The notes under the pieces were generated by a model. It worked only from the letters and a program-made list of their open reading frames with translations, had not been told where the DNA came from and made no database searches. Shown here one piece after another: positions 1 through 12,826 of a DNA stretch of 12,826 bases. How positions within the stretch are numbered: the stretch's first letter is position 1; every line of letters begins with the position of its first letter. A program made the translations under genes and the position numbers. This stretch comes from Bacteroidota bacterium (GTDB lineage: Bacteria > Bacteroidota > Bacteroidia > Flavobacteriales > Crocinitomicaceae), in assembly GCA_029558435.1 (NCBI GenBank), contig JAKQEZ010000604.1:1-12826 (forward strand), written 5' to 3'.

Positions 1-13
1 GGTAATATACAAA

Positions 14-114
14 ATGCGCAATATTGATTTTAATCTGATTGCCTGTTTATCAAGAGAATATTCCTGTTTGCTTATTATGTTGATATTTGAAATAAATATT
101 GTATTATTGCGCAT
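14..114. repeat. Inverted repeat ATGCGCAATA / TATTGCGCAT
   Basis: A perfect 10-bp inverted repeat: ATGCGCAATA at 14-23 and TATTGCGCAT at 105-114, separated by 81 bp of AT-rich DNA. Each arm contains the palindrome TGCGCA. The spacing is long for a terminator. Possible readings are paired operator half-sites, the ends of a small element, or the edge of a gene regulatory region lying mostly outside the window. Function is unknown. Confidence 0.45.
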
Positions 115-307
115 ATTTATGAGTTGTAAGCAAGCCTATTACGACACTGCAACGGTTAACATGACAGCTTGAAAACTCGACCTTACACTACCTGGCCAAA
201 CTTTTCAGACGACCTTAACATGGCAGACAATTTCGGTGTAACTCGACAAAGTCCAGCAGACCACCTTGGCGACACACAAGCCAACGCAATAGGTTTTAAA
301 ATTTTTG

Positions 308-350
308 CCCACCCGCATTTAAAAAAGTAATTCTAATCCCACCCGCATTT
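308..350. repeat. Duplicated 13-mer, 30-bp period
   Basis: The word CCCACCCGCATTT occurs at 308-320 and again at 338-350, exactly 30 bp apart, with an AT-rich 17-bp spacer. The second copy leads directly into the left arm of the hairpin at 347-410. The GC-rich CCCACCCGC cores stand out from the AT-rich surroundings. This is either a small tandem duplication or part of a mobile or structured intergenic element. Confidence 0.6.
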
Positions 351-410
351 TGCACATTTGGTTTTGCCCGACACATAAGCCTACCCTTCGCAAAACCAAA
401 AGAGCAAAAT
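347..410. repeat. Long hairpin upstream of the operon
   Basis: The left arm at 347-367 and right arm at 390-410 pair over 19 of 21 positions, including a perfect 11-bp TTTGGTTTTGC / GCAAAACCAAA next to a 22-nt loop. The outer arms carry GCACATTTG (352-360) and CAAAAGAGC (397-405). The same two words recur in the arms of the hairpin at 9792-9857, on the other side of the operon. A run of six T follows the right arm, so it could act as a terminator for a gene upstream, but the shared sequence suggests a repeat family. Confidence 0.6.
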
Positions 411-448
411 TTTTTCCACAGCTCAATAAACGGACAGGAAATAATTAC

Positions 449-456
449 TACATTTG
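449..456 (+). promoter_or_regulatory. Candidate -7 promoter box for the four-gene operon
   Basis: TACATTTG matches the Bacteroidota -7 consensus TAnnTTTG and ends 35 bp before the GTG start of the regulator gene. No clear TTG -33 element lies at the usual distance upstream, so the call rests on the -7 box and its position only. Because the following genes overlap or nearly abut, this would be the only promoter for the whole operon. Confidence 0.4.
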
Positions 457-470
457 ACAAATTCTGACAA
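455..470 (+). promoter_or_regulatory. Possible operator: TGACAA repeated one helical turn apart
   Basis: TGACAA occurs at 455-460 and 465-470, spaced by 10 bp and overlapping the end of the candidate -7 box. Direct half-sites spaced by one turn next to a promoter would suit autoregulation by the XRE protein encoded just downstream. This is inference, since GACAA words are common in this DNA. Confidence 0.2.
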
Positions 471-491
471 GCCAACAATAATACAAGTAAC

Positions 492-779
492 GTGAAGCAT
501 TTAGGACAAAAAATTAGAGAACTTAGAGAGAAGCAAAACCTGCTTTTAAGACAGGTTGCTGCTCATCTTGAAGTTGACACTGCTTTAATGAGTAAGATTG
601 AGAGAGGCGACAGAAACGCTTCCAAACAACAGGTGATTGAGATTGCCAAATTCCTAAAAGCCAACGAAGATGAACTGCTTACGCTTTGGCTGGCTGACAA
701 ATTGGAGAATGTGGTTGGTGACGAAAAAGATTTAGCTCCTGATGCTTTGAATATCCTAAAAAAGAAATTGAAGAAATGA
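492..779 (+). CDS. XRE/Cro-type helix-turn-helix regulator
   Basis: A 95-residue protein made almost wholly of one HTH_3 (lambda-repressor-like) domain, roughly residues 4-62. The recognisable core is the LRQVAAHLEVDTALMSKIER stretch at residues 19-38, followed by the RGDRNASKQQVIEIAKFL helix region. The start is GTG at 492. An in-frame TGA at 465-467 and no ATG before the HTH make it the only sensible start. The last codons overlap the next gene by an ATGA at 776-779, so it is translationally coupled to the helicase. Proteins of this size heading restriction-modification operons are usually controller (C-type) proteins that set the timing of nuclease expression. That role is inferred from position. 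It has no ligand domain and no membrane segment. Confidence 0.85.
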   Translation: MKHLGQKIRELREKQNLLLRQVAAHLEVDTALMSKIERGDRNASKQQVIEIAKFLKANEDELLTLWLADKLENVVGDEKDLAPDALNILKKKLKK

Positions 780-3700
780 AGAAAGGTATTAAACTCATAG
801 ACAATTCATCAAACGAGTATCAGCTTGGTACTGTATTAAAAGAACTGATTCAAGACAAAGCGTTTTCTCAAATTTCTATTGCGACAGGCTATTGGGATTT
901 GCCCGGAATGGTTACAATCCTTGAAGAGTTGAATCAATTTTTAGAAAGGGACAATATTACATTCAGACTGTTATTAGGCGAAGAACCATCTGTTAGGGCT
1001 TATCAGGTTAAAAACCCTAAACAACAAGACCCCGACTTTCCTGAAAAATATTTGAAGAAAGATTTAGAGGACTTGCAACTGAAAGAGGAGTTTCAACAGG
1101 TTGCTGACTTGTTAGGTAAATACATGAACGAAACGAATAGCGGTAAAATTCAAATCAAAGTTTACCGAAAAAACTTTCTTCATGCTAAGTGCTACATTTT
1201 TGGAACTGATGAAGAAAATGCAGTTGGCATTATCGGCAGTTCCAATTTCACTAAGCAAGGTTTGTTCGGCAATCTTGAGTTAAATCAGTTTGAAGACAAC
1301 AACGCAACAGTAAATTTTATCCGTAAAAATCTTTCACAGCATCCTTCACATCGCACATGGTTTGAAGAACTATGGAACGAAAGTGAGGATTGGAGCAAAA
1401 CCTTCAAAGAAGAAATTCTTGCTTTGAGCAAACATGGTGGAACCTGCTTTAGTGCTTACGAAATGTATATCCATGCTTTGTATCGTATTTACGGACAGGA
1501 TTTATTGGACGAGAAAGAAAACAAAGTTGACATAGACGACCCAAGTTCAGGCAAGCCGCAATTATTGAAGTTTCAAATCCAAAATGCCAATTCACTTATC
1601 AAAAAATTGGAACGACAAGGGGTTGCCATGCTTTCTGATTCTGTTGGGTTAGGTAAGACCTACACAGCCATTAAGGTAATTGAATACTACAAACAGAATT
1701 TGAATCAAAGAGTTGTGGTCATTGCACCTGCCGGACTCATTCAGCAATGGAGAAAATCATTTGATGATTTCAAAGTGGTTCATATCCCTGAAATATACAG
1801 TTTGCAGGACACCGAGAAAATCAAAGATGTTCGTGAAAATTTACAATCTATTCCCGTTGGCTTATTTGTGTTTGATGAAAGCCACAACCTGAGGGCATCG
1901 GGCGGACAACGTTTTGATGTATTTATTAAGTGGCGTCAGGAAAATGAAAACGCTAAAACCTTGTTGCTTACCGCAACGCCTATCAACAATCAGTTAGCCG
2001 ACCTTACAAATCAAATCATGTTGGGTTCAGGTGGGGAAATTTTTAAGTTGGGAAAATTTTACGACCGCAGCAGACAAAAATATTTTACATTAAAAGAACG
2101 CCTTGAACTCCTGCAAACGGACATGAGAAGGCAAATCCGTGAGAGCGGATTTATCAATTATCAGCAAATAAAAGAACAACTTACCCCTTTGCTGAATCGC
2201 TTTATCGTCAGACGAACAAGGCAGGGAATTGAAAAAGAATATCCTGATGGATTGGAGATAAATGGCAAACTTCAAAAGTTTCCAAAATCATATCCTGACA
2301 ATTTGGAGTATGAAGTTCCCAATCAGTTCAAATCGCAATTACTCAAATATGCAGAGCCATATCCCGAACTGACAAGAGCTTTCAATTACGAAATCAGCAG
2401 TTTGGCTGAGTTAGAGTATTTGGCTCATCCGCTTGACTTGTTTGACCATTACACCGAAAGAGACAAGCCCATTCATTCATCGCTTGAAATAATTTACACA
2501 GCATTGCTAAGTTTAGGTTTTCCTTGCTACCGCTACAATATTTATCGTCATGCTTACTATGGTAGAAAGCGTGGAGAATTGGAGTTAAATGCAGATGAAA
2601 ACCGAGAACTTAGCAGACAGATTGGTATTTACGGAATTTTCAGAACCGTATTTTTAAAGCGTTTGGAATCATCCCTTTTCTCCATCAATAAATCCATTGG
2701 AAGCTATGAGAAAAAATTGATTGACTTTCAAAACAAATTGGAGCAATTCAATAAAATCATTTCAGTAAAAAATCTATCAGCGTTAAACAAAGCCATTGAT
2801 GCCTACAATGAACAAAATGCTGAGGAAGATGAATTAGACTTTGATATTGAAGATTTTGAAAGTGCAGAAGAAGGATTTACCAGCATTGTAGCCGATGAAG
2901 GTGTTTTTAATGTAACACAACTGAAAGCTGATATCAGCAAAGACCTTGCAGTGCTGAAAATTTTGAAAGAGCAAATCAGGTATTTATTAGACAAGGACGA
3001 TAAGATTCAGGAATTAGCCAAACACTTAAATCAAAATGAAGACCGAAAAGTTTTGGTGTTTACCTACTTTGCCGACACTTTGCAATATCTATCTGAGAAC
3101 CTGCCTCAGTATTTGGTGAAAGGCAAAAACATAGAATTTGCCTTAGGTTCAAAAAGCGAAATTGAGGTCTATGCCAAACGCTTTGCTCCTGTTTCCAAAA
3201 AATACCAACTGAAAAACGGAGAAAAGGAAATTGATTTCTTGATTGCAACCGACAAACTTTCAGAAGGTCAGAACTTGCAAGATTGCGGCATGATAATCAA
3301 CTACGATTTGCATTGGAACCCTGTGCGAATGATTCAACGAAACGGGCGTATCAATCGCTTAGGTAGTAAACACGAAGAAATTTTTATTTACAATTTCCGA
3401 CCCGAAGAACAGTTGGAAAGTTATCTGCAATTAGTCCGCAAACTGGAAGATAAAATCAATCTGATTCGCTACACCATTGGAACCGACCAATCTATTTTGG
3501 ACGAAGATCCCGAACCACAGGACTATACCGAAGACCTTTACAGCCGTGACGAAAAGAAACGTTTGGCTGCATTCCAAAAGATTTTTGAAACATCGGAATT
3601 GCTGGCAGCCGAAGATTTATTTATGGATGACCTGAGAGCATTTGACCGAAATGAGGAATTTGCATTAACCTACAAGGCGCAAATTAAAAACATGCCCAAA

Positions 3701-4279
3701 GGCAAATGGGGCAAAGTGCAAATGCGAAAGGAAGAAGATGATTTTATACATCTGGCTCATTTGGCAGCGGGTGATGAAGAAGCATTGGAAGCAGGATATT
3801 TTGTGGCGTTCACCAAAGATAAAATTGGGGAGTTGCTCACCACTACCGAAGGTTTGTTGCACATTAAAGCAACCAGTGAGCAAAATGAACGCTTTGCCGA
3901 TAAATTCAAACATAAACCTGAAACGGAAGCATACATATTGGATTTTATTCAACGCTACCAGTTTTCGGAAGAAGAACATCAGGTGCGATACAATCAACCG
4001 CAACAGACTGCTATTGCTTTTCTAATCAATAAAATGATGGAATACGGTTATCCTGTTTCGGAAATTGACAAAGTGAGTAATTCTATTTTGCATTCTCAAA
4101 ACGCTTACATCAATAAAGAGAATTTAAAATTGGTGCGATTGGTAAACCGTTTGAACCGCAGAGGCGAACACGTTTCTGATGAAATCATTAAGCAGTTCAT
4201 TTCGTTGGCTAACCAATACAAACCTGAAGAAAAAACGGAGAAAGCTCCACTAAGTGAAATCATTCAAATTTTCGCATGA
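776..4279 (+). CDS. PLD-like nuclease fused to SNF2/RapA-type helicase
   Basis: A 1167-residue two-enzyme protein. Residues about 1-210 form a phospholipase-D-like domain with one HKD-type motif: H136 and K138 in HAKCYIF, then GSSNF at 154-158. The aspartate usual at HxKx4D is replaced by G143. A single motif implies dimerisation to build the active site. Residues about 265-500 are the SNF2 N-terminal ATPase lobe, with Walker A GLGKT at 291-295, DESH at 367-370 and TATP at 399-402. The C-terminal lobe, about 770-890, has motif VI QRNGRINRLG from residue 854. Between the lobes lies an insertion of about 260 residues with a probable coiled coil and a very acidic patch (683-699). The C-terminal 270 residues are unassigned. 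It likely translocates on duplex DNA and cuts it, as in DISARM DrmD- or RapA-like helicases. The gene overlaps both neighbours by ATGA. Confidence 0.88.
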   Translation: MKKGIKLIDNSSNEYQLGTVLKELIQDKAFSQISIATGYWDLPGMVTILEELNQFLERDNITFRLLLGEEPSVRAYQVKNPKQQDPDFPEKYLKKDLEDLQLKEEFQQVADLLGKYMNETNSGKIQIKVYRKNFLHAKCYIFGTDEENAVGIIGSSNFTKQGLFGNLELNQFEDNNATVNFIRKNLSQHPSHRTWFEELWNESEDWSKTFKEEILALSKHGGTCFSAYEMYIHALYRIYGQDLLDEKENKVDIDDPSSGKPQLLKFQIQNANSLIKKLERQGVAMLSDSVGLGKTYTAIKVIEYYKQNLNQRVVVIAPAGLIQQWRKSFDDFKVVHIPEIYSLQDTEKIKDVRENLQSIPVGLFVFDESHNLRASGGQRFDVFIKWRQENENAKTLLLTATPINNQLADLTNQIMLGSGGEIFKLGKFYDRSRQKYFTLKERLELLQTDMRRQIRESGFINYQQIKEQLTPLLNRFIVRRTRQGIEKEYPDGLEINGKLQKFPKSYPDNLEYEVPNQFKSQLLKYAEPYPELTRAFNYEISSLAELEYLAHPLDLFDHYTERDKPIHSSLEIIYTALLSLGFPCYRYNIYRHAYYGRKRGELELNADENRELSRQIGIYGIFRTVFLKRLESSLFSINKSIGSYEKKLIDFQNKLEQFNKIISVKNLSALNKAIDAYNEQNAEEDELDFDIEDFESAEEGFTSIVADEGVFNVTQLKADISKDLAVLKILKEQIRYLLDKDDKIQELAKHLNQNEDRKVLVFTYFADTLQYLSENLPQYLVKGKNIEFALGSKSEIEVYAKRFAPVSKKYQLKNGEKEIDFLIATDKLSEGQNLQDCGMIINYDLHWNPVRMIQRNGRINRLGSKHEEIFIYNFRPEEQLESYLQLVRKLEDKINLIRYTIGTDQSILDEDPEPQDYTEDLYSRDEKKRLAAFQKIFETSELLAAEDLFMDDLRAFDRNEEFALTYKAQIKNMPKGKWGKVQMRKEEDDFIHLAHLAAGDEEALEAGYFVAFTKDKIGELLTTTEGLLHIKATSEQNERFADKFKHKPETEAYILDFIQRYQFSEEEHQVRYNQPQQTAIAFLINKMMEYGYPVSEIDKVSNSILHSQNAYINKENLKLVRLVNRLNRRGEHVSDEIIKQFISLANQYKPEEKTEKAPLSEIIQIFA

Positions 4280-7200
4280 CAATTAACGAAATCAATAAAA
4301 TATTAGCCCAACTGGCAGAAAGTCCATCACGAGAGAACGTGTTGGATTTTGCTTTTGCCTTGCTGCAATGGATGAACATTGAACCTAATGCACAGCAGAA
4401 ACCGCAACTGCTTTCGCCACAAACACAGAAACTAAAAGACTTTTTAGCTCCTGCTCCGCAAACCGTGCAACCACAGTTGTATCGCCTGAGTGCCGACAAT
4501 CAAAATATCCGTGTAAGGTTTGCTGTGCTTAAAAAACTGAAAAAAGATTACATCAGCCAGTTGGTGGATAATGACCCGGGACTTAGCAGCTATCAATCAT
4601 TCATAAAAGGCATTACCGCCAATGGAAGCGGATTTGTGCCTACTCAACCCTACTTCATTCACTTTGTAACCACTCCTGAGTATGACAAATTAGTGCTCAT
4701 TTTCAATCAGGGTGAACAGAAAAGAATTGTTTCTTTCCGCAGAAGATTAACCACCACCCAATACAATAAAATTATTCAGCAATGGCAGGGTGTTGGCTCA
4801 AAGACGAAACCCGAAATTGCCGACCTGCTTTGGAAATCGCTTGACATAAAAGAGGTAAACAAAGAGTTCTATAAACAAGTGAAAGAACGCTTTGATGCTT
4901 TGTTAGGCATTGTAAAAACGCAACATACCACAGCTACCGAAAATCAGGTTAAACAATTTACGGTTCGCCTAATAGGCAGGTATATTTTCTGTTGGTTTTT
5001 GAAAGAGAAAGGCATTATTGCTCATTCACTCATTGGCAAAAAAAACATTGAAGATACAGACAACTATTATCAGAATGTATTGCTAAAACTGTTTTTTGAA
5101 ACACTCAACACAAAAGTTCAGGATAGGAATCCAATAACACACAACAAGCTTTTTGAGAAAATTCCTTACCTAAACGGTGGCTTGTTTGATGAAAGTGAAG
5201 AAGACAAACTGTTCACCGATTTGCACTTAGATGCATGGCTATTGCCTTTTGTAGAAATTTTGGAGAGTTATGATTTTACGGTGGACGAAAGCAGCAGCCA
5301 ATACCAGCAAGTGGCGGTTGACCCTGAAATGTTGGGACGCATTTTTGAAAATCTGCTGGCAAGCCAAAACGAAGAAACCGAAAAATTAGCCAACCAACGC
5401 AAGGCATTTGGTGCTTTTTATACACCACGGGAGATTGTGGACTACATGGTAAACGAAAGCATTAAAGCCTATTTGCAAACACAATGGGAGCAGCACATTG
5501 TAGAACAGAAAACCAAAACACTGAACAACCCCGAACCTGTTGGCGATATTTTTGGCAATAAAAAACCACAGCAATTAGCCATAGAAACCAAACGCTATGA
5601 ACTGAAAGCAGAAGAAAAAACCAAAATAGAAAAAGCCATTGAGCCATTATTTGCTGCCAACCCCGATGCAGGGCATTTGAAGAAAGAAGAAAGGGCATTA
5701 TTAGACGGCTTTCTCAAAAAGATAAAAATTTTAGACCCTGCTTGTGGCTCTGGTGCATTCCCAATGGGTGTGCTTCATAAACTTAAAGACCTGCGTGAGC
5801 AATTAGGTTTATACTCCGACCCATATAAATTAAAGTTGGAAATACTCTCAAACAATATCTATGGTGTGGATATAATGCCCATGGCAGTTGAGATTGCCCG
5901 TCTACGTTCTTGGTTGAGTTTAGTATTAGAATCAGATTATAAAGCCAACTTACCAAATAACAATTTTGGTATTGATGCATTACCAAACCTTGATTTCAAA
6001 TTTGTTTGTGCCAATAGTTTAATTGATTTAGGATTGGACAGTTTTATACAAGAGGCGGGAAAAAGTTTGCTGGCTGGTTTTAATCAAAAACTGTTGACCA
6101 AGTTAAAGTCATTAGAAGCCATACGTAAAGACTATTTTAAGCCCGATATATCCAGCAATGAAAAGGAACAATTAAGATATAACTACATTGAAAAGCGAGA
6201 TGAAGTTGTAAAGGAAATAGATGAGCAGAGTGAGCCGGTGCTGAAAGCCATAGCCCAAAAAATAAAACACTGGAACCCCTTTGACGATAGCCAGCCCAGC
6301 CCCTTCTTTTCACCCACTTGGATGTTTGGTATTGACAAGGGTTTTGATGTGGTGATTGGGAATCCGCCTTACATTCAGTTATCGAAATCTGAAAATGTTT
6401 CTCTTGATTACAAGCAGTATTTGAAAAAGCGATACAATACTTCGGCTGGCAGATTGAACACTTTCGTTTTTTTTATTCATCAATCCCTTGAAATCTTGGG
6501 TCGTGGCGGGCAACTTGCTTTCATTATACCAAACACCATTCTCACCCAGGAATATTACAGTTATACAAGAGAATTGATTTTGAAGAATTACCAGCTGAAG
6601 GAAATCGTGAACTATGAGAATATGCCTTTTGAAAATGCTGTTGTAGAAAATGTCACGTTGTTTGTTCAGTCAAAGCAACCAGATGAAACTTTTCGGGTTA
6701 AAATAAAATCAGATGATTTATCATCAGTAAAACTTTTAGCAGAAAAAAGCAATGGAGAGTTTATCATTCAGGATAATTTCTCTTTTGGTTTTAAGTCATC
6801 TTCACTAATTGATAAATTCTTTTCAAATGAGAGCTACGAAGCAGTAGGTGAAATTTGTTTTGTCAATCAAGCAATTGCTTTAAAAGGTGATAAAAGTTTA
6901 TCGCTAAGAAATCAAAACCCCAACAACAAATATTATAAGTTGCTTGATGGAAGAAACATCAACAAGTATGAGATTAATTGGACAGGTGTTTTTCTTGATT
7001 ATTCATTAAGTAGGATTCATTCATGTAAGAGAAAGGATATTTTTCAGAGTAATGAAAAACTTTTATTTAGACGAGTTTCAGAGAATTTAGTTTTTACTTA
7101 TGATGATGAACAATATTTTGCCCTGAACACAATTGTTGTAATCAATCTTAAACCGAACAAGAAATACAAACTTAAATTTTTATTGGCACTTCTCAATTCA

Positions 7201-7506
7201 TCATTGATGAATCATATTTACAAAAATCGGTTCAAGTCAACCAAAAAAGTGTTTTCAGAAATTCAAGCAAATACAGTTGAGAAATTACCAATAAAAAAAG
7301 CGACTAGGGAAATTCAAGCTGGTTTTATTTCCAAAGTAGATAAAATTCTTTCTCTTAAAAAGAAAAACCAAGACACCACCGCATTAGAGCGTGAAATTGA
7401 TGTGTTGGTTTACAAGCTCTATGAACTCACGTATGATGAAGTGAAAATAATTGATAAAGATTTTTGGTTGAGTGAGGAGGAGTATGGGAAAGTAAAATTG
7501 GGGTAA
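4276..7506 (+). CDS. Eco57I/TaqI-type N6-adenine DNA methyltransferase
   Basis: A 1076-residue gamma-class adenine methyltransferase. FGAFYTP (378-384) is the conserved lead-in to the catalytic domain. DPACGSGAF (487-495) is motif I, which binds S-adenosylmethionine. NPPY (696-699) is catalytic motif IV. Residues about 770-1030 should be the target-recognition domain. The end contains the helical REIDVLVYKLYELT segment (from 1039) common to Eco57I-like enzymes and BREX PglX. The N-terminal 330 residues are long enough for the nuclease half of a type IIG enzyme, but I see no clear PD-(D/E)xK motif, so it probably methylates only. The neighbouring PLD and PD-(D/E)xK proteins could supply cutting. 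It overlaps the helicase gene by ATGA (4276-4279), and the next gene starts 3 bp after its stop. The likely role is marking host DNA; the target sequence cannot be read. Confidence 0.88.
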   Translation: MTINEINKILAQLAESPSRENVLDFAFALLQWMNIEPNAQQKPQLLSPQTQKLKDFLAPAPQTVQPQLYRLSADNQNIRVRFAVLKKLKKDYISQLVDNDPGLSSYQSFIKGITANGSGFVPTQPYFIHFVTTPEYDKLVLIFNQGEQKRIVSFRRRLTTTQYNKIIQQWQGVGSKTKPEIADLLWKSLDIKEVNKEFYKQVKERFDALLGIVKTQHTTATENQVKQFTVRLIGRYIFCWFLKEKGIIAHSLIGKKNIEDTDNYYQNVLLKLFFETLNTKVQDRNPITHNKLFEKIPYLNGGLFDESEEDKLFTDLHLDAWLLPFVEILESYDFTVDESSSQYQQVAVDPEMLGRIFENLLASQNEETEKLANQRKAFGAFYTPREIVDYMVNESIKAYLQTQWEQHIVEQKTKTLNNPEPVGDIFGNKKPQQLAIETKRYELKAEEKTKIEKAIEPLFAANPDAGHLKKEERALLDGFLKKIKILDPACGSGAFPMGVLHKLKDLREQLGLYSDPYKLKLEILSNNIYGVDIMPMAVEIARLRSWLSLVLESDYKANLPNNNFGIDALPNLDFKFVCANSLIDLGLDSFIQEAGKSLLAGFNQKLLTKLKSLEAIRKDYFKPDISSNEKEQLRYNYIEKRDEVVKEIDEQSEPVLKAIAQKIKHWNPFDDSQPSPFFSPTWMFGIDKGFDVVIGNPPYIQLSKSENVSLDYKQYLKKRYNTSAGRLNTFVFFIHQSLEILGRGGQLAFIIPNTILTQEYYSYTRELILKNYQLKEIVNYENMPFENAVVENVTLFVQSKQPDETFRVKIKSDDLSSVKLLAEKSNGEFIIQDNFSFGFKSSSLIDKFFSNESYEAVGEICFVNQAIALKGDKSLSLRNQNPNNKYYKLLDGRNINKYEINWTGVFLDYSLSRIHSCKRKDIFQSNEKLLFRRVSENLVFTYDDEQYFALNTIVVINLKPNKKYKLKFLLALLNSSLMNHIYKNRFKSTKKVFSEIQANTVEKLPIKKATREIQAGFISKVDKILSLKKKNQDTTALEREIDVLVYKLYELTYDEVKIIDKDFWLSEEEYGKVKLG

Positions 7507-7509
7507 GCG

Positions 7510-9777
7510 ATGGAGCAGTTTCAAATTACATCAAGACCAAGACACCTTCGCTATGTGTTTTTTGTGGATGAAAATTATCCCTATGAAGCATTGCTTTCAA
7601 TTATTCATACCAATCAGAAAATTTGGGGAGGCAGATACAATCCAATCGTTCCTGTTAAAGACAATACGATTACTGACAGATGGAAGGAGATTCTGAAATA
7701 CTACGACCCTGATTATGTTTTCTACTCAAAGGAAATTGACCCGGAAGTTCTAAAAAGGTTACGCATTTTCAATCCCTGTGGATATTACAACCTTGACGAC
7801 CAACCAAGGCGAGAAGATATTTCAGGAGTAAGCGGCTTTTATTTGCTCTCACAGTTTCATGTAAAGTCAAAAATTATTTTGACAGCTGAAACATGGAAAA
7901 CAGAAAGCCCATTGCTCCCATACTACAAAACCAATTTCGGCTTTGAAACAAGTTTAATGCACCATGAATATGAACTAAGCAAAGACTTTGACAGAACGAT
8001 TGTTGGAGAAAAAGAATTTGGATCACTGAATAAACTAATTGCAGAGCAGAGACCAATAAATCAATCGCACTTTTCGAGACGAAACTTAAACACCGTAATT
8101 CTAAGAAGCAAAAATTACACAGGTGGTTACCATTTTGAAATTGTAATTGCGAAAGACAAGTCTTCCAACGCTGATTTATTTTACTACTGGAACAGAATGT
8201 TGTTTGAGTTGCGGAACATCATGTATGTAACAGTTGAAGAATTGAACCTGCTTTGTGCTGATGAATATTTCGGACAGGTTCTTTATGATATGGATTGGGA
8301 TAATTCCATTCTTGTTACTTCTGAATCATTGTCAAAGGAAGAAGTTCAGGAAATCATTGACAACAAACTGAGAAAGACAAAAGCAAACAGGCGATTTGAA
8401 AATGGAAGACTGGAATCATTTCCTTTTGAGGTGCAGGATGCTCAAGGTTTGTATGAAAGAAATTTTGGAGAAGTTCCAACAGTGCAAACACTTCATTCAA
8501 GAAAGGGATTGCTTCATTTACCGAAGCTGAGTTTCGCTGATAAGGTCGGGTTTTATCCGCAAGGTTTGGCATTGGATATTCACATCAATCAAATCGGTGA
8601 ACATACACAGAATGTTTTGGCATTACCTTTTACAACGGAAACTCAATTCATAGTTAAAGGAGTGAAAGGAAGAATCAACCGCAGAAGAAACATCTCTGTT
8701 ATTCTTCGCAATCAGGAAAACACATCAGGCACTTTGGAAATAAATATTCCTGAGTTCAAAAGTTTGCTTCGCCAGTTACTTCAAAGCCCAGTGATTGACG
8801 GAAAACCAAAAGACACAAAATATATTGATAGCGGAGCACATGATGATAGCAATAAACTCACTGCATTTCTGAAAACATTCAATTACAATTTCTTGGCGGT
8901 AGATGATTTCTTCGCTGACATATTTTGGGTGAATATTTTTGAAAAACTTGCAACGAGCAAGAAGGCAACAGGCGATTCCATTTCGCTTGATGAAATTTTG
9001 GAAAGATGCAGAATTGCTTTGGCTACCAAAGGTGAAGTGCAGTTGGATGAAAACGGAAAATTGGCTGGTAAGAAAGGGGAAACATTTAGGAACGATGAAA
9101 ACTTAGAATTGGGCATCAAGGAAACGATAAAGGAATTGTGCAACTACAAAGTTTTTCTTAAAGGGTTTAATCTGAAATGTAAAAATTGTTCATCACAATT
9201 TTGGTATCACATCAATGAAGCAAAAGAGACAATCAACTGCAAAGGTTGCCTTGAAGATTTTCCGTTTCCTATTGAGCCGAAGTTTGCATACAAACTGAAT
9301 GACCTGATTAAAAACAATATCTTCCGACCAGACGGTTCGAGAGACGGAAATCTTACAGTCATCCGAACTCTTGTAAGTATGCAGCAAAGAAGAAGTCATC
9401 AATCATTTTTCTATAGCCCGCAATTAAATCTTTACGACAACTATCATTCAAATGCCCCTTGTGCTGAGCTTGACATTATTTGCCTTTCAGACGGGCAGCT
9501 AGTAATTGGAGAGGCAAAACATGACAGCCGAGGATTCTTTGAAAAAAACAGTAAGGGCGAAAATTCATTGGATACGCTTATAGAAATATCAAAAGCAATA
9601 AGACCGGATAAAATTCTCTTATCATGTTATGCGGACAATAATGACAAACTGGAAAAGGCAAAGAAATATCTAGAAGGAAAATTTTATCAATATGATTTTG
9701 CCCCAGCAATTGAAACATTACCATTGCATACACCAGACGATTTTCACTTAGGACATCACAGATATTTTTACTACTAA
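7510..9777 (+). CDS. Unrecognised protein with zinc ribbon and PD-(D/E)xK nuclease signature
   Basis: A 755-residue soluble protein I do not recognise by name. The N-terminal ~130 residues are distinctive: HLRYVFFVDE, then IWGGRYNPIVPV and YDPDYVFY, an alternating strand/helix pattern that may be a Rossmann-like sensing domain. The middle (about 150-540) has no motif I can assign. A zinc ribbon follows, with C557-x2-C560 and C577-x2-C580. Near the C-terminus E653 and D655 in CAELDII, then E668 and K670 in GEAK, fit a PD-(D/E)xK nuclease core (D-x12-E-x-K), so it probably cuts nucleic acid. It is the last gene of the operon, 3 bp after the methyltransferase, and so most likely works with it and the helicase. 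Alternatives are a specificity or sensor subunit whose nuclease acts only after target recognition. The nuclease call is fairly firm, the role inferred. Confidence 0.7.
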   Translation: MEQFQITSRPRHLRYVFFVDENYPYEALLSIIHTNQKIWGGRYNPIVPVKDNTITDRWKEILKYYDPDYVFYSKEIDPEVLKRLRIFNPCGYYNLDDQPRREDISGVSGFYLLSQFHVKSKIILTAETWKTESPLLPYYKTNFGFETSLMHHEYELSKDFDRTIVGEKEFGSLNKLIAEQRPINQSHFSRRNLNTVILRSKNYTGGYHFEIVIAKDKSSNADLFYYWNRMLFELRNIMYVTVEELNLLCADEYFGQVLYDMDWDNSILVTSESLSKEEVQEIIDNKLRKTKANRRFENGRLESFPFEVQDAQGLYERNFGEVPTVQTLHSRKGLLHLPKLSFADKVGFYPQGLALDIHINQIGEHTQNVLALPFTTETQFIVKGVKGRINRRRNISVILRNQENTSGTLEINIPEFKSLLRQLLQSPVIDGKPKDTKYIDSGAHDDSNKLTAFLKTFNYNFLAVDDFFADIFWVNIFEKLATSKKATGDSISLDEILERCRIALATKGEVQLDENGKLAGKKGETFRNDENLELGIKETIKELCNYKVFLKGFNLKCKNCSSQFWYHINEAKETINCKGCLEDFPFPIEPKFAYKLNDLIKNNIFRPDGSRDGNLTVIRTLVSMQQRRSHQSFFYSPQLNLYDNYHSNAPCAELDIICLSDGQLVIGEAKHDSRGFFEKNSKGENSLDTLIEISKAIRPDKILLSCYADNNDKLEKAKKYLEGKFYQYDFAPAIETLPLHTPDDFHLGHHRYFYY

Positions 9778-9791
9778 AATGCCAGGCACAG

Positions 9792-9857
9792 TTTCAAGCA
9801 CATTTGCAAACCGCTACAAGCCCACACGCAGACCAAAGTTTGCAAAAGAGCTTGAAA
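9792..9857. repeat. Hairpin just downstream of the four-gene operon
   Basis: The left arm at 9792-9810 and right arm at 9839-9857 pair at 17 of 19 positions around a 28-nt loop. It begins 15 bp after the stop codon, so it may serve as a transcription end or an mRNA-stabilising structure, although no T-run follows directly. Its arms share GCACATTTG and CAAAAGAGC with the hairpin at 347-410, and the loops are also alike (CCG...ACA...AGCC). The two therefore look like diverged members of one family flanking the operon. Confidence 0.6.
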
Positions 9858-9870
9858 CTCTCCCGCCCGA

Positions 9871-9920
9871 GAAGAATAACTTTTTTAAATTTCCACCCCT
9901 TCTAAAAAATTTTAATACCT
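9871..9920. repeat. AT-rich blocks resembling the operon's left flank, inverted
   Basis: The block at 9871-9890 matches the reverse complement of 317-336 at 17 of 20 positions (shared ACTTTTTTAAAT). The block at 9905-9920 matches the reverse complement of 291-306 at 15 of 16. Order is kept and spacing is similar (14 versus 10 bp). With the flanking hairpins this could be the remains of terminal inverted repeats around the four-gene operon. The blocks are AT-rich, so chance similarity must be allowed for. Confidence 0.35.
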
Positions 9921-9984
9921 GCCATCTCACAGCCGACACAGCCAGCAAAACACTTACGGACAGCAGCTTGACAATGACGAAGAC

Positions 9985-10126
9985 AGAAGGCCAGCTTACA
10001 ACAGCGGTTTTGCAAAAGCGGGGGTGCAGTGCTTCGGTTGACAGTTTTTTCGTATTATTGGAGTGCGGTTTTTCAAATAAGCTGTTGTGCTAAAAAGCCC
10101 CGCCTTCGCAAAGCCGCCAAACGTTA
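9985..10126. repeat. Large inverted-repeat element, copy 1 (attC-like)
   Basis: An element of 142 bp. The inner arms GCGGTTTTGCAAAAGCGGGG (10004-10023) and CCCCGCCTTCGCAAAGCCGC (10098-10117) pair at 17 of 20 positions. The outer ends are ACAAC on the left (9999-10003) and ACGTTA on the right (10121-10126), so AAC/GTT can pair beyond an unpaired stretch, as in integron attC sites. The loop contains GCAGTGCTTC and TTGTGCTAAAAAGCC. All these parts recur in copy 2 at 12554-12693 in the same order and orientation. The right-end GTTACAG departs from the attC core GTTRRRY, so an unrelated repeat family remains possible. Confidence 0.6.
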
Positions 10127-10223
10127 CAGGCAACCCTAACGAGCGACCGCCCAGACATTCAGCAAAACGGACAAACACGAAAATTTCCACTCTGACAACG
10201 ACTGACAAACCGATTAAAAATGC

Positions 10224-10231
10224 TAACTTTG
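10224..10231 (+). promoter_or_regulatory. Candidate -7 promoter box for the restriction-modification pair
   Basis: TAACTTTG matches the Bacteroidota -7 consensus TAnnTTTG exactly and lies 25 bp before the ATG of the methyltransferase gene. No clear -33 TTG is visible. It would give the two-gene unit its own promoter, independent of the four-gene operon upstream. Confidence 0.5.
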
Positions 10232-10256
10232 CCCTATAACTTTTTTAGACAGACAA

Positions 10257-11630
10257 ATGCTGACAAAAGAATACATAAAAGACTTGAAAACCAACGGAAA
10301 CGGTGCTATTGGAAAACTTGTGGAACAGCACAAGACCAATAGCGGAAGTTTGGTTTTTATCTTGGAAAGTTTGGGACAACTGCCTAAAAACTTTGACAGT
10401 TCTTTTCTGCCCGACTTGACAACTCACAAAAGTTCAGACGTGCGACTTTTAGCAGTTAAGAACATTGGAAAATTAGCAGACGAACAAAACATTCAGTTGC
10501 TTTCATACATTTCAAAACACGACAACGACACAACCGTAAGACGTGAAGCAATTTCTTCAATCGGACGAATGAGAAAAGAAATCGTGAAGCCGTATTTGGT
10601 TGATGCTCTACAAGACGAAGACCCAAAAGTTGTGTGCCAAGCCATTCGTGGACTTTTGGTTTTCAAAGGCAATGGAGTTGATGAAGAACTTAAAAAACTT
10701 ATCAACCACGAAAACGAAATGGTAAGAACAGTGATTTATAAAGAGTTTTTTGCTACGCAAAAAACTCATAAAAATCAGCCTCATACCGAAAGTTACGACT
10801 ACTTGAAAAACGTTGTTGTAAATGCCGATACCATTGAAACTATGAAACTTTTAGAAGATGAAAGTATTCATTTGACGTTCACTTCGCCACCATATTACAA
10901 TGCAAGAGATTATTCCATTTATCCAAGTTACAAAGCGTATTTGGAGTTTCTTGCTGACGTTTTTAAAGAAGTTCATCGTATAACAAAAGAAGGACGATTT
11001 TTAATTGTAAACACTTCGCCAATTATCATTCCGAGAATTAGCCGTTCTCATTCAAGCAAGCGTTATCCAATTCCGTTTGACATTCACCCGTATTTAATGG
11101 AAATGGGTTGGGAATTTATTGACGACATTGTTTGGCTCAAACCCGAAGCAAGCGTAAAAAATCGCATTGGCGGTTTTATGCAGCACAGAAAACCGCTTGG
11201 CTACAAACCAAATTCTGTAACCGAATATTTAATGGTTTACCGAAAATCAACTGAAAAATTGTTGGATTGGAATATTAGAGAATACGACTACAAAACAGTT
11301 CAGGAAAGCAAAGTTGCTGACGGCTACGAAACTTCAAACGTTTGGAAAATTGACCCTTGTTTTGACAAAGTTCATTCGGCAGTTTTTCCTGTTGAACTTT
11401 GCAAACGAGTTATACAGTATTATTCATTCAAAAATGATTTAGTTTTTGACCCATTTGGCGGAAGCGGAACAATGGGAAAAACTGCAAAAAGTTTAGGGCG
11501 TAATTTTTTCTTGACAGAAAAAGACGAAACCTATTTTGAATATATGAAGTCAAAAAAATCAAAAGAAATTTTTGACAGCAGAGAAACGAAATTTTTATCA
11601 CTCAACGAATTTAAGCAAACGATAAAATGA
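10257..11630 (+). CDS. HEAT-repeat / SPPY DNA methyltransferase fusion
   Basis: A 457-residue modification enzyme of a type II system. Residues about 45-170 are helical HEAT-like repeats (units around DVRLLAVKNIGKL, TVRREAISSIGRM, KVVCQAIRGLL, MVRTVIYKEFF). The catalytic domain follows, with motif IV TSPPYY (209-214) and then motif I FDPFGGSGT (397-405). This IV-before-I order defines beta-class amino-methyltransferases. The SPPY form is most often found in N4-cytosine enzymes but also occurs in N6-adenine ones. The segment between (about 235-380) should recognise the target. The HEAT extension is unusual for such a small enzyme and may contact DNA or the partner endonuclease. The gene overlaps the endonuclease gene by ATGA (11627-11630). 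It protects host sites cut by that enzyme. Confidence 0.88.
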   Translation: MLTKEYIKDLKTNGNGAIGKLVEQHKTNSGSLVFILESLGQLPKNFDSSFLPDLTTHKSSDVRLLAVKNIGKLADEQNIQLLSYISKHDNDTTVRREAISSIGRMRKEIVKPYLVDALQDEDPKVVCQAIRGLLVFKGNGVDEELKKLINHENEMVRTVIYKEFFATQKTHKNQPHTESYDYLKNVVVNADTIETMKLLEDESIHLTFTSPPYYNARDYSIYPSYKAYLEFLADVFKEVHRITKEGRFLIVNTSPIIIPRISRSHSSKRYPIPFDIHPYLMEMGWEFIDDIVWLKPEASVKNRIGGFMQHRKPLGYKPNSVTEYLMVYRKSTEKLLDWNIREYDYKTVQESKVADGYETSNVWKIDPCFDKVHSAVFPVELCKRVIQYYSFKNDLVFDPFGGSGTMGKTAKSLGRNFFLTEKDETYFEYMKSKKSKEIFDSRETKFLSLNEFKQTIK

Positions 11631-12535
11631 CATTAACAGAACAAGTAGCAAAGAACATAATCCGTAAGTTGCTTAAAGGCGAAGATTACAGAATTGAAGT
11701 TGTAACACTGATAAATGCGGAGTTTCTGCAATTCGCAATAGACTTTTTCAAAAAGATTGTTGAGGCAAAATTGCAAAGCAAAAGCATTACAAGCGATTGG
11801 TATAAAGAAGCATTTCTAAATCCGAAATTGACAACAAGTGAAATTGCAATTAATTCGGGTTTGAACAAAAAGACCATTCACAATATGTTCAATTCTTCCA
11901 CGAAAGAAATTGTGATTGATGCAGCAAATGAACATTACGATATTTTGTATCAAAGCATACAAAATCTTGTTGAAACAGAAAACGAATTGGAACTAACGCT
12001 TACAATAAAATTCAAAGGAGTTTCAGTTGATTTGAATGTAAGCGAAAGTTTGATTGTTGTAAATACACTTGCCGTAAAACGTGCAGAACTTCGTGGCGGA
12101 CTTTGGAGCACAGCAGGAAAACGAGTTGAACGACCTTTGGTAGAAACGCTTTGCAAATTGTATTCTGTTAGTGAGAAAAACTACAAAGCGAAATTCAAAA
12201 AAGACAACTCAAAAGGCTTTGACAGAGAAATTGATTTTTACCTACTCAAAGACGACAAAGAATTTTTATGCGAAGTAAAACTTATGGGACGTGGAAATCC
12301 CGAAAGTGCAGACGCAGTTATTGCAAGAGCGACAAACGTTTTTGTTGCCGACAAACTTTCTGACCAAAACAAAAACCAACTTGACAGTTTAGGAATAAAT
12401 TGGATAGAACTGCGGACTGAAAACGGGTTCAGACGTTTCAAAAAAGCGTTAGAAAAGTTGGACATTCCGCATAAAGACTTCAACGGAAACTTAGAAAAAG
12501 ACCTTGACAAAGTATTTGACGAAATATTTGAATGA
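11627..12535 (+). CDS. Type II restriction endonuclease, probably CfrBI-like
   Basis: A 302-residue endonuclease partnered with the methyltransferase it overlaps. The catalytic core is E201 and D203 in REIDFYL, then E216 and K218 in CEVKLMG: a PD-(D/E)xK site. The GNPESADAVIARATNVFVAD stretch that follows and the earlier GLWSTAGKRVE remind me of the CfrBI restriction family, whose founder cuts C/CWWGG and is paired with an N4-cytosine methyltransferase. I rate the family name as moderately sure and the target as a guess. Residues 68-90 (LTTSEIAINSGLNKKTIHNMF) look like a helix-turn-helix and may bind DNA for recognition or autoregulation. There is no signal peptide. Stop TGA at 12533-12535. 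Length and layout are normal for a complete enzyme, with no sign of decay. Confidence 0.8.
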   Translation: MTLTEQVAKNIIRKLLKGEDYRIEVVTLINAEFLQFAIDFFKKIVEAKLQSKSITSDWYKEAFLNPKLTTSEIAINSGLNKKTIHNMFNSSTKEIVIDAANEHYDILYQSIQNLVETENELELTLTIKFKGVSVDLNVSESLIVVNTLAVKRAELRGGLWSTAGKRVERPLVETLCKLYSVSEKNYKAKFKKDNSKGFDREIDFYLLKDDKEFLCEVKLMGRGNPESADAVIARATNVFVADKLSDQNKNQLDSLGINWIELRTENGFRRFKKALEKLDIPHKDFNGNLEKDLDKVFDEIFE

Positions 12536-12553
12536 CGACAAGACGAAAAAACA

Positions 12554-12693
12554 AGAAGGGCAGCCTGTAACAAGGGTTTGGCGTAATGGCGGGTGAAGTG
12601 CTACTATTGAACTTTTGTGCTGTAACAAACGGCAGTGCTTCTATTGAACATTTGTGCTATAAAGCCGCCACTACGCCAAGCCCCGAACCGTTA
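12554..12693. repeat. Large inverted-repeat element, copy 2 (attC-like)
   Basis: An element of 140 bp, homologous to copy 1 at 9985-10126. The first 29 bases agree at 22 positions. The inner arms at 12574-12592 and 12665-12683 pair at 17 of 19. Left end TGTAAC (12567-12572) and right end CCGTTAGC (12688-12695) allow TAAC/GTTA pairing outside a bulge, like the R''/R' boxes of an integron attC. TTGTGCTATAAAGCC (12652-12666) matches copy 1 at 14 of 15. It directly follows the endonuclease gene, where a cassette's recombination site would lie. Confidence 0.65.
12597..12662. repeat. Direct 29-bp repeat inside the element's loop
   Basis: The 29-bp segments at 12597-12625 and 12634-12662 agree at 26 positions and start 37 bp apart. 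Each begins AGTGCT and ends TTGTGCT(G/A)TAA. They fill nearly the whole loop between the arms of the large element. Copy 1 keeps recognisable pieces of the same units (AGTGCTTC at 10028-10035; TTGTGCTA at 10085-10092). Confidence 0.7.
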
Positions 12694-12767
12694 GCGGTCA
12701 TGCTATGGCGACACTGCAAACTTGAAACGGACTACATAAAACAAACGGGTAACTCAACAACAATAAA

Positions 12768-12826
12768 ATGAAACGAGGAACATTTATATTATCGGCACTT
12801 TCACTATTTCCTTTGAGTATTTTTGC
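12768..12826 (+). CDS. N-terminus of a secreted protein (partial)
   Basis: The ATG at 12768 opens a frame that runs off the window, giving 19 full codons that begin MKRGTFILSALSLFPLSIF. This is a typical signal peptide: two basic residues, then a hydrophobic stretch of about 15 residues. No lipobox cysteine is reached. The product is therefore exported, but its function cannot be told from what is visible. It lies 75 bp after copy 2 of the large inverted repeat and is probably not part of the restriction-modification unit. Confidence 0.6.
   Translation, partial: MKRGTFILSALSLFPLSIF

Follow-up and report, generated by a model that had tools for sequence, protein, structure and literature searches.

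Few descriptions of a PLD-SNF2 protein paired with an Eco57I-type methyltransferase were found among the papers that we searched. One of them concerns orf33-orf35 of the Lactococcus plasmid pLd8, published in 2018 as a putative type II(G) restriction-modification (RM) operon; in the section devoted to this operon, a PLD-SNF2 protein is followed by a methylase with pfam12950 (TaqI_C) in which no restriction domain was found, and the authors give restriction to the PLD protein and note a likeness to class I DISARM (PMC6098607). The 15,360-bp plasmid CP016750, which carries one of the loci compared below (L074), figures in another paper's list of plasmids whose type II system is "apparently complete" (PMC6458302). 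According to an excerpt of a third paper, type-2 BREX-related (BR) systems combine an N6-methyltransferase with a Swi2/Snf2 helicase that carries an N-terminal HKD nuclease, and a DUF499 ATPase is central to them (PMC12839542). Here we describe a block of four genes, A to D, from a Bacteroidota bacterium of the family Crocinitomicaceae (assembly GCA_029558435.1, contig JAKQEZ010000604.1, positions 1 to 12,826 of the forward strand; the window is this whole stretch of 12,826 nucleotides).

The B and C genes of this block resemble the pLd8 operon in joining a PLD-SNF2 protein to a TaqI_C methylase. The likeness is drawn from the published description of pLd8. The nearest Lactococcus plasmid relatives are 33-35% identical to B, and the pLd8 section describes neither orf35 nor any protein similar to D (PMC6098607). 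The pair also resembles class 1 DISARM (DrmD, DrmMI) in its SNF2 helicase and large adenine methyltransferase, but the window has no separate DrmA, DrmB or DrmC and its PLD domain is fused to the helicase. It shares with the type-2 BR systems, as the excerpt presents them, an HKD-Swi2/Snf2 fusion and an N6-methyltransferase, but lacks the DUF499 ATPase (PMC12839542). Among the six proteins encoded in the window (A to F), no separate DrmA, DrmB or DrmC was identified (the DrmA and DrmC models score on B alone, at 1.6e-19 and 0.0075), no match to PglZ, BrxC or BrxL was listed, and no DUF499 ATPase was matched; these negatives are bounded by the contig ends and, for B, C and E, by the best 25 families of PADLOC.

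We conclude that the block probably consists of two parts: A-B-C, an RM trio of a known, little-studied kind, and D, which belongs to an independent accessory nuclease family lying beside it. The basis of this conclusion was computed: domains, motifs, gene order, the uneven divergence of C and the largely separate spread of B-C and D. The features of the block are as follows.

492..779, + strand: gene A, XRE-type helix-turn-helix regulator, control-protein-like, 95 amino acids, GTG start (HTH_31 in Pfam, 1e-10)
776..4279, + strand: gene B, N-terminal PLD nuclease and SNF2 helicase, 1167 amino acids; proposed restriction subunit
4276..7506, + strand: gene C, Eco57I-type N6-adenine methyltransferase with TaqI_C recognition domain, 1076 amino acids; proposed modification and specificity subunit
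6526..7506, + strand: 3' third of gene C, residues 751-1076, recognition-domain region; proposed exchanged or fast-evolving specificity module (from identity and guanine-cytosine (GC) content)
7510..9777, + strand: gene D, orphan protein, 755 amino acids
9154..9264, + strand: zinc ribbon of gene D, about residues 549-585, including C557, C560, C577 and C580 (from conservation and modelled strands)
9472..9519, + strand: predicted PD-(D/E)xK active-site stretch of gene D, D655 to K670 (from conservation and modelled fold)

The A/B and B/C junctions are ATGA overlaps and three bases separate the stop codon of C from the ATG of D, as a first-pass annotation of the window had stated. Its component types (XRE regulator, PLD-SNF2, Eco57I-type methyltransferase and zinc-ribbon PD-(D/E)xK protein) were borne out by the domains, motifs and structure model, and the block does encode the two nuclease types that it named, PLD in B and PD-(D/E)xK in D. 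The frames of A to D are not due to chance: they have domain matches or relatives, and the three large ones run to 755-1167 amino acids.

Domains and motifs of genes A, B and C

Gene A scores with the PADLOC model Control_protein (2.9e-9) and its orthologs adjoin B in two other loci (86% identity in L086 and 71% in L087). Upstream of A, at window positions 347-410, lies an inverted repeat of 21 nt (90%) with a 22-nt spacer, which is a possible operator. Gene B contains the Pfam domains PLDc_2 (6.5e-11), SNF2-rel_dom (2.4e-15) and Helicase_C (6.5e-15), and presents the motifs HxK at residue 136, GSxN at 154, Walker A at 291 and DESH at 367. These motifs are kept in all nine sequences compared, window included, with DEAH replacing DESH in two of them. 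The best PADLOC model for B is C3a139 "HKD+Snf2" (3.1e-51, residues 113-945). In a protein search that scored only the candidates sharing most words, residues 1-500 of B matched 3,679 of 7,993 scored proteins at E<=0.001, remote matches included.

Gene C matches Eco57I (4.6e-36) and TaqI_C (6.4e-25) in Pfam and REase_MTase_IIG in PADLOC (3.7e-98), with the motifs DPACGSGAF at residue 487 and NPPY at residue 696. No nuclease family was matched on C in Pfam, although IIG models of PADLOC score on it. Judged by sequence, B-C is an RM pair: a predicted DNA methyltransferase with catalytic motifs and a recognition domain, and a putative nuclease encoded beside it.

Conservation of A-B-C and divergence of the recognition region

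The A-B-C order is found in L086 (A 86%, B 90% and C 81% identical over the part present), on a contig that ends inside C. The arrangement in L087 is A-B, then genes of the RhuM and 23S-IVP families (L087 3321-4591), then C. We compared 18 B loci other than the window (L067-L077, L086-L090, L092 and L093). The set is no random census, having been drawn from 395 genomes sampled in one phylum (five with B at E<=1e-50), from 294 genomes of one family (five at E<=1e-150), from one D-carrying genome and from hand-picked matches in a plasmid collection (574 records, all below 60% identity). B identity across these loci lies between about 25% and 90%, and some of them are thus remote. C directly adjoins B in 13 of the 18 (L067-L074, L086, L089, L090, L092 and L093), whereas other frames separate the two genes in the remaining five (L075-L077, L087 and L088). 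The pair was found both in genomes and on plasmids of lactic acid bacteria. These comparisons show that A-B-C is the conserved part of the block.

The genes located 3' of C vary across the other B-C loci and include a DUF559 nuclease (L067), DarT and Macro (L070), an AbiC-type protein (L072), an SMC-like ATPase with a Schlafen protein (L089) and, 0.8 kb further on, an annotated abortive infection protein (L093). This variety of defence genes suggests that the position behind C may be a variable accessory slot, filled by D in the window.

The recognition region of C diverges faster than the rest of the protein in L087 and L067. Over aligned residues, the C protein of L087 is 87% identical to that of the window across residues 1-225 and 78% across residues 1-600, and only 29% across residues 751-1076 (284 aligned), whereas B is 88% identical in both 1-600 and 751-1167. 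Likewise, C of L067 is 58% identical over residues 1-600 and 18% over residues 751-1076, with 66% and 59% in the matching parts of B. The C protein of L086 ends before the recognition region. GC-content falls at the same place: window C presents 30.8% after NPPY plus 60 amino acids vs 39.2% before, and the 600-bp GC minimum of the window (28.2% at position 6701; window mean 37.4, standard deviation 2.8) lies inside the 3' part of C. Because uneven identity and the fall in GC-content coincide, we propose that this part is an exchanged or fast-evolving specificity module. By analogy with other RM systems, exchange of the recognition parts of C is likely.

A second fragment of the C end faces C in two loci, L074 (where it carries TaqI_C and an annotated Mpi-type DNA invertase is present) and L068. 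The inverted matches span 321 nt at 71% in L074 and are shorter in L068, up to 66 nt. L092 also has an Mpi-type invertase gene, and no inverted match beyond a small palindrome was found there. On the Lactococcus plasmids of L074 (8763-10230) and L092 (8796-10272), a gene facing C and an annotated Mpi-type invertase gene both lie 3' of C; TaqI_C was matched on the facing gene of L074. These arrangements hint at a switchable specificity, with inversion tentatively suggested for the Lactococcus case only.

Architecture and relatives of gene D

Gene D has no match in Pfam, PADLOC or NCBIfam at E<=0.1. Its structure model comprises a Rossmann-like N-terminal region (about residues 1-335), a beta region, a helical region, a zinc ribbon (about 549-585) and a PD-(D/E)xK domain (about 600-742). 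Two alignments that include the window (27 and 24 sequences) show no change at C557, C560, C577, C580, D655 and E668; K670 is likewise unchanged in the alignment of 27 and is conserved at >=90% in that of 24. The conserved D...E-x-K on a modelled restriction-nuclease fold assigns D to the PD-(D/E)xK superfamily, and the model of the nuclease domain matches Can2, Card1, EndoMS and EcoT38I. The C-terminal half of D is thus comparable to the CRISPR ancillary nucleases Card1 and Can2, but D differs from them by its zinc ribbon and by its large N-terminal region without a clear solved relative, which presents the conserved motifs WGGR-NP, DPD and WN. As far as sequence comparison goes, D represents a new, unnamed accessory nuclease family.

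We identified 115 D-related proteins in one search, and a genome scan gave 55 loci. When the frames of these loci and of one plasmid locus were compared with the window proteins by BLAST, 49 of the 56 loci proved to contain a D frame. None of these 49 D loci presented a B or C ortholog beside D in the same BLAST, including L002 and L004, where D is 79% identical to that of the window. The contig extends at least 5 kb on both sides of D in 26 of the 49 and at least 9 kb in 16. BLAST otherwise gave three matches: over 123 residues with a type II methylase of L025, over 57 residues with a DrmD-like helicase of L043 and, for A, a 30% identical protein of L028. Sixteen of 17 D-carrying genomes lack a B match at E<=1e-20; the remaining one has a B relative of 27-36% identity on another contig. 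Conversely, D was found in none of the 18 B loci, and the contig runs well past C in 14 of them (all except L071, L086, L087 and L088). The short locus of L064, a further remote place with B, held no D match either. D was detected in two of the 395 and two of the 294 sampled genomes; three of these four were already known carriers (G003, G014 and G411) and G612 was new. Two or three candidates per genome were scored in these large searches, for B as well as for D, which makes their negatives soft. Overall, the distribution of D is largely separate from that of B-C.

Remote D relatives occur in several phyla, according to record titles, and on two Burkholderia plasmids. Targeted scans gave examples of D relatives with RM genes in the vicinity: type I genes in L005 (at 1.4 kb), L021, L026 and L031, and genes of type II or IIG-type methylases in L025 and L034. 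In L031, D sits with one small frame between the type I specificity and methylase genes, and in L043 a DrmD-like helicase is encoded three genes upstream. Other neighbours include Schlafen-domain genes (L018), a HIRAN helicase (L012) and STAND-like NTPases below the Pfam cut-off (L006 and L007), and some D relatives adjoin plainly non-defence genes.

A tally of neighbours covered 149 proteins (at most two on each side, 150-1300 amino acids, 45 loci, L001 left out), of which 145 were scanned together; the other four (1064-1259 amino acids) comprised three scanned singly and one in L026 called HsdR-like by clustering with that of L021. Among the 25 of 302 PADLOC families shown, the most frequent models were mad2 (4) and MTase_I (3), then MTase_I, MTase_III, MTase_II and pAgo (2 each). 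The Pfam matches included Schlafen AlbA_2 (4) and N6_Mtase (3), beside radical SAM (3), purine-synthesis and transposase families; both tallies are descriptive and are no measure of enrichment for defence genes.

Some further arrangements were observed around D relatives. In one Bacteroidales and one Aminicenantes genome, a member of a small unnamed gene family separates D from a gene of the type I R-subunit type (L021 8421-8990, 189 amino acids; L026 12456-13184, 242 amino acids). In the Cloacimonadota loci L027, L029 and L032, the neighbours of D belong to shared clusters and form a different setting that is partly metabolic; in L029 they are an ATPase, an aminotransferase-type protein and then a purine-synthesis gene. 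Finally, a Burkholderia glumae plasmid carries a remote D relative (L001 7536-15612) 0.7 kb, or one small gene, behind three tyrosine recombinase genes, a placement that would suit the cargo of a mobile element.

Alternative explanations

Several observations weigh against our conclusion and are set out here with the alternatives. The first-pass annotation had read the four genes as one system. Under this view, A-B-C-D would be a defence system of a Bacteroidota lineage in which self is marked by C, restriction falls to B and D is required as a second nuclease. The same strand and the three-base C-D junction speak for it, and the closest A-B-C relatives (L086 and L087) end inside C, so that D might lie behind C there. 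Similarly, 23 of the 49 D loci have less than 5 kb on one side, where the absence of B and C is not absolute. Moreover, a D cluster (P0016, 73%) and a B cluster (P0202, 82% over residues 1-500) share 56,701 as the length of their longest contig. The chance of this coincidence among long contigs is about 0.017 in a jitter test, and a second contig with both B and D is therefore likely, their distance and order aside. However, 42 of the listed B clusters have a longest contig of at least 20 kb, and P0202 is the only one of these to coincide in length with a listed D cluster; the other 41 include one that is 98% identical to B over residues 1-500, on 169,392 bp. This comparison, based on the longest contig of each cluster among the best 120 of the 3,679 B matches, can miss pairs. 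Together with the lack of D in the B loci, of B and C orthologs in the D loci (even those with D at 79%) and of B in nearly all D-carrying genomes, it makes a single four-gene system unlikely. The conservation of gene order that the first-pass annotation had asked about thus holds for A-B-C in L086 and widely for B-C, and fails for D with B-C, the 56,701 coincidence keeping a link possible.

A second alternative is that B-C is a reduced DISARM or BREX-related system whose core genes were lost or lie off the contig. In PADLOC, B scores with DrmD (1.8e-35), BrxHI (4.6e-28), HmaA (1.5e-27) and DrmA (1.6e-19), and C with DrmMI (4.1e-21) and PglX; in NCBIfam, DrmD reaches 150.5 bits and BREX-1 PglX 88.7 bits. 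These scores fall on B and C themselves, however, and far below the cut-offs where these exist (610 and 500, respectively), and no separate DrmA, DrmB, DrmC, PglZ, BrxC, BrxL or DUF499 protein is among the six of the window, an absence that the first-pass annotation had noted for DrmA, DrmB, PglZ, BrxC and BrxL. B-C is also carried by an 11.8-kb plasmid with no core gene among its eight listed features (8/8) and by a 15.4-kb plasmid, where 8 of 10 features were shown and none of these is a core gene. We therefore regard this origin as very improbable. The claim that the block matches no nameable system needs dividing: B-C resembles the putative type II(G) RM operon described in the pLd8 section (PMC6098607), whereas D has no family match. 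The PADLOC search gave the same division, with models for B (C3a139), C (REase_MTase_IIG) and A (Control_protein) and none for D at E<=0.1.

Two details of C also count against an RM trio with an exchanged specificity module. The exact DPACGSGAF is absent from two of nine C proteins (L073 and L074). Among seven other C genes, the GC-content of the 3' part is lower by 1.2-7.8 points in six and higher by 0.5 in L074; the low value is thus partly a property of the region and no proof of recent exchange. A last alternative concerns D alone and is compatible with an RM trio beside an independent D: D might be a sensor-gated, cell-harming effector of the Card1/Can2 kind that guards nearby RM systems, instead of a cutter of incoming DNA. 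We hold this possibility as tentative.

A second RM pair in the window

Two further genes lie 3' of D, outside the block.

10257..11630, + strand: gene E, HEAT repeats and N6/N4 DNA methylase, 457 amino acids (N6_N4_Mtase 8.8e-40, HEAT_2 2.6e-14)
11627..12535, + strand: gene F, CfrBI-like restriction endonuclease, 302 amino acids (RE_CfrBI 1.4e-24; PADLOC REase_II 1.1e-110)

These genes overlap by ATGA and form a second RM pair (10257-12535) that starts 479 bases past D; the range of the first-pass annotation (492..9777) stops short of it. E and F resemble a CfrBI-type pair, with an RE_CfrBI endonuclease beside a HEAT-repeat N6_N4 methylase, and E is the methylase of an RM pair separate from A-D, with F as its likely partner. 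The presence of E-F beside A-D makes the contig rich in RM genes. The gap between D and E (window 9778-10256) contains several imperfect inverted repeats, the longest of 27 nt (85%, 9785-9811/9838-9864).

Proposed mechanism and implications

We propose that A-B-C acts as a type II-like, ATP-dependent RM system. As expected from RM biology, the TaqI_C-type recognition domain of C would select the site at which C methylates adenine, and C would recruit B, a separate restriction subunit, to unmethylated sites. B may then travel along DNA by its SNF2 motor and cut by its PLD domain, and A may tune expression in the manner of RM control proteins. Discrimination of self from non-self by methylation, suggested by the first-pass annotation, is likely to be the principle. 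Exchange or fast evolution of the 3' third of C would change the site while B and the N-terminal part of C stay matched. The Rossmann-like N-terminus of D probably senses a ligand or a partner and licenses the nuclease. If D acts with A-B-C, it might give a second or backup cut when restriction is blocked, which is speculative. The layered cutting put forward in the first-pass annotation would be a possible joint action of B and D.

The pairing of PLD-SNF2 with an Eco57I methyltransferase appears to be a restriction system that is both minimal and mobile and whose specificity part can change; it may be related to the DISARM helicase and methyltransferase. More tentatively, D may found a new family of sensor-gated PD-(D/E)xK effectors, spread across phyla and repeatedly attached to methyltransferase-based restriction systems of different types, that would fire when these are blocked or bypassed. 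If true, this family would combine a new Rossmann-like sensor, a zinc ribbon and a Card1/Can2-like nuclease. As an unnamed family with some members beside RM genes, D constitutes a clear candidate for a defence assay.

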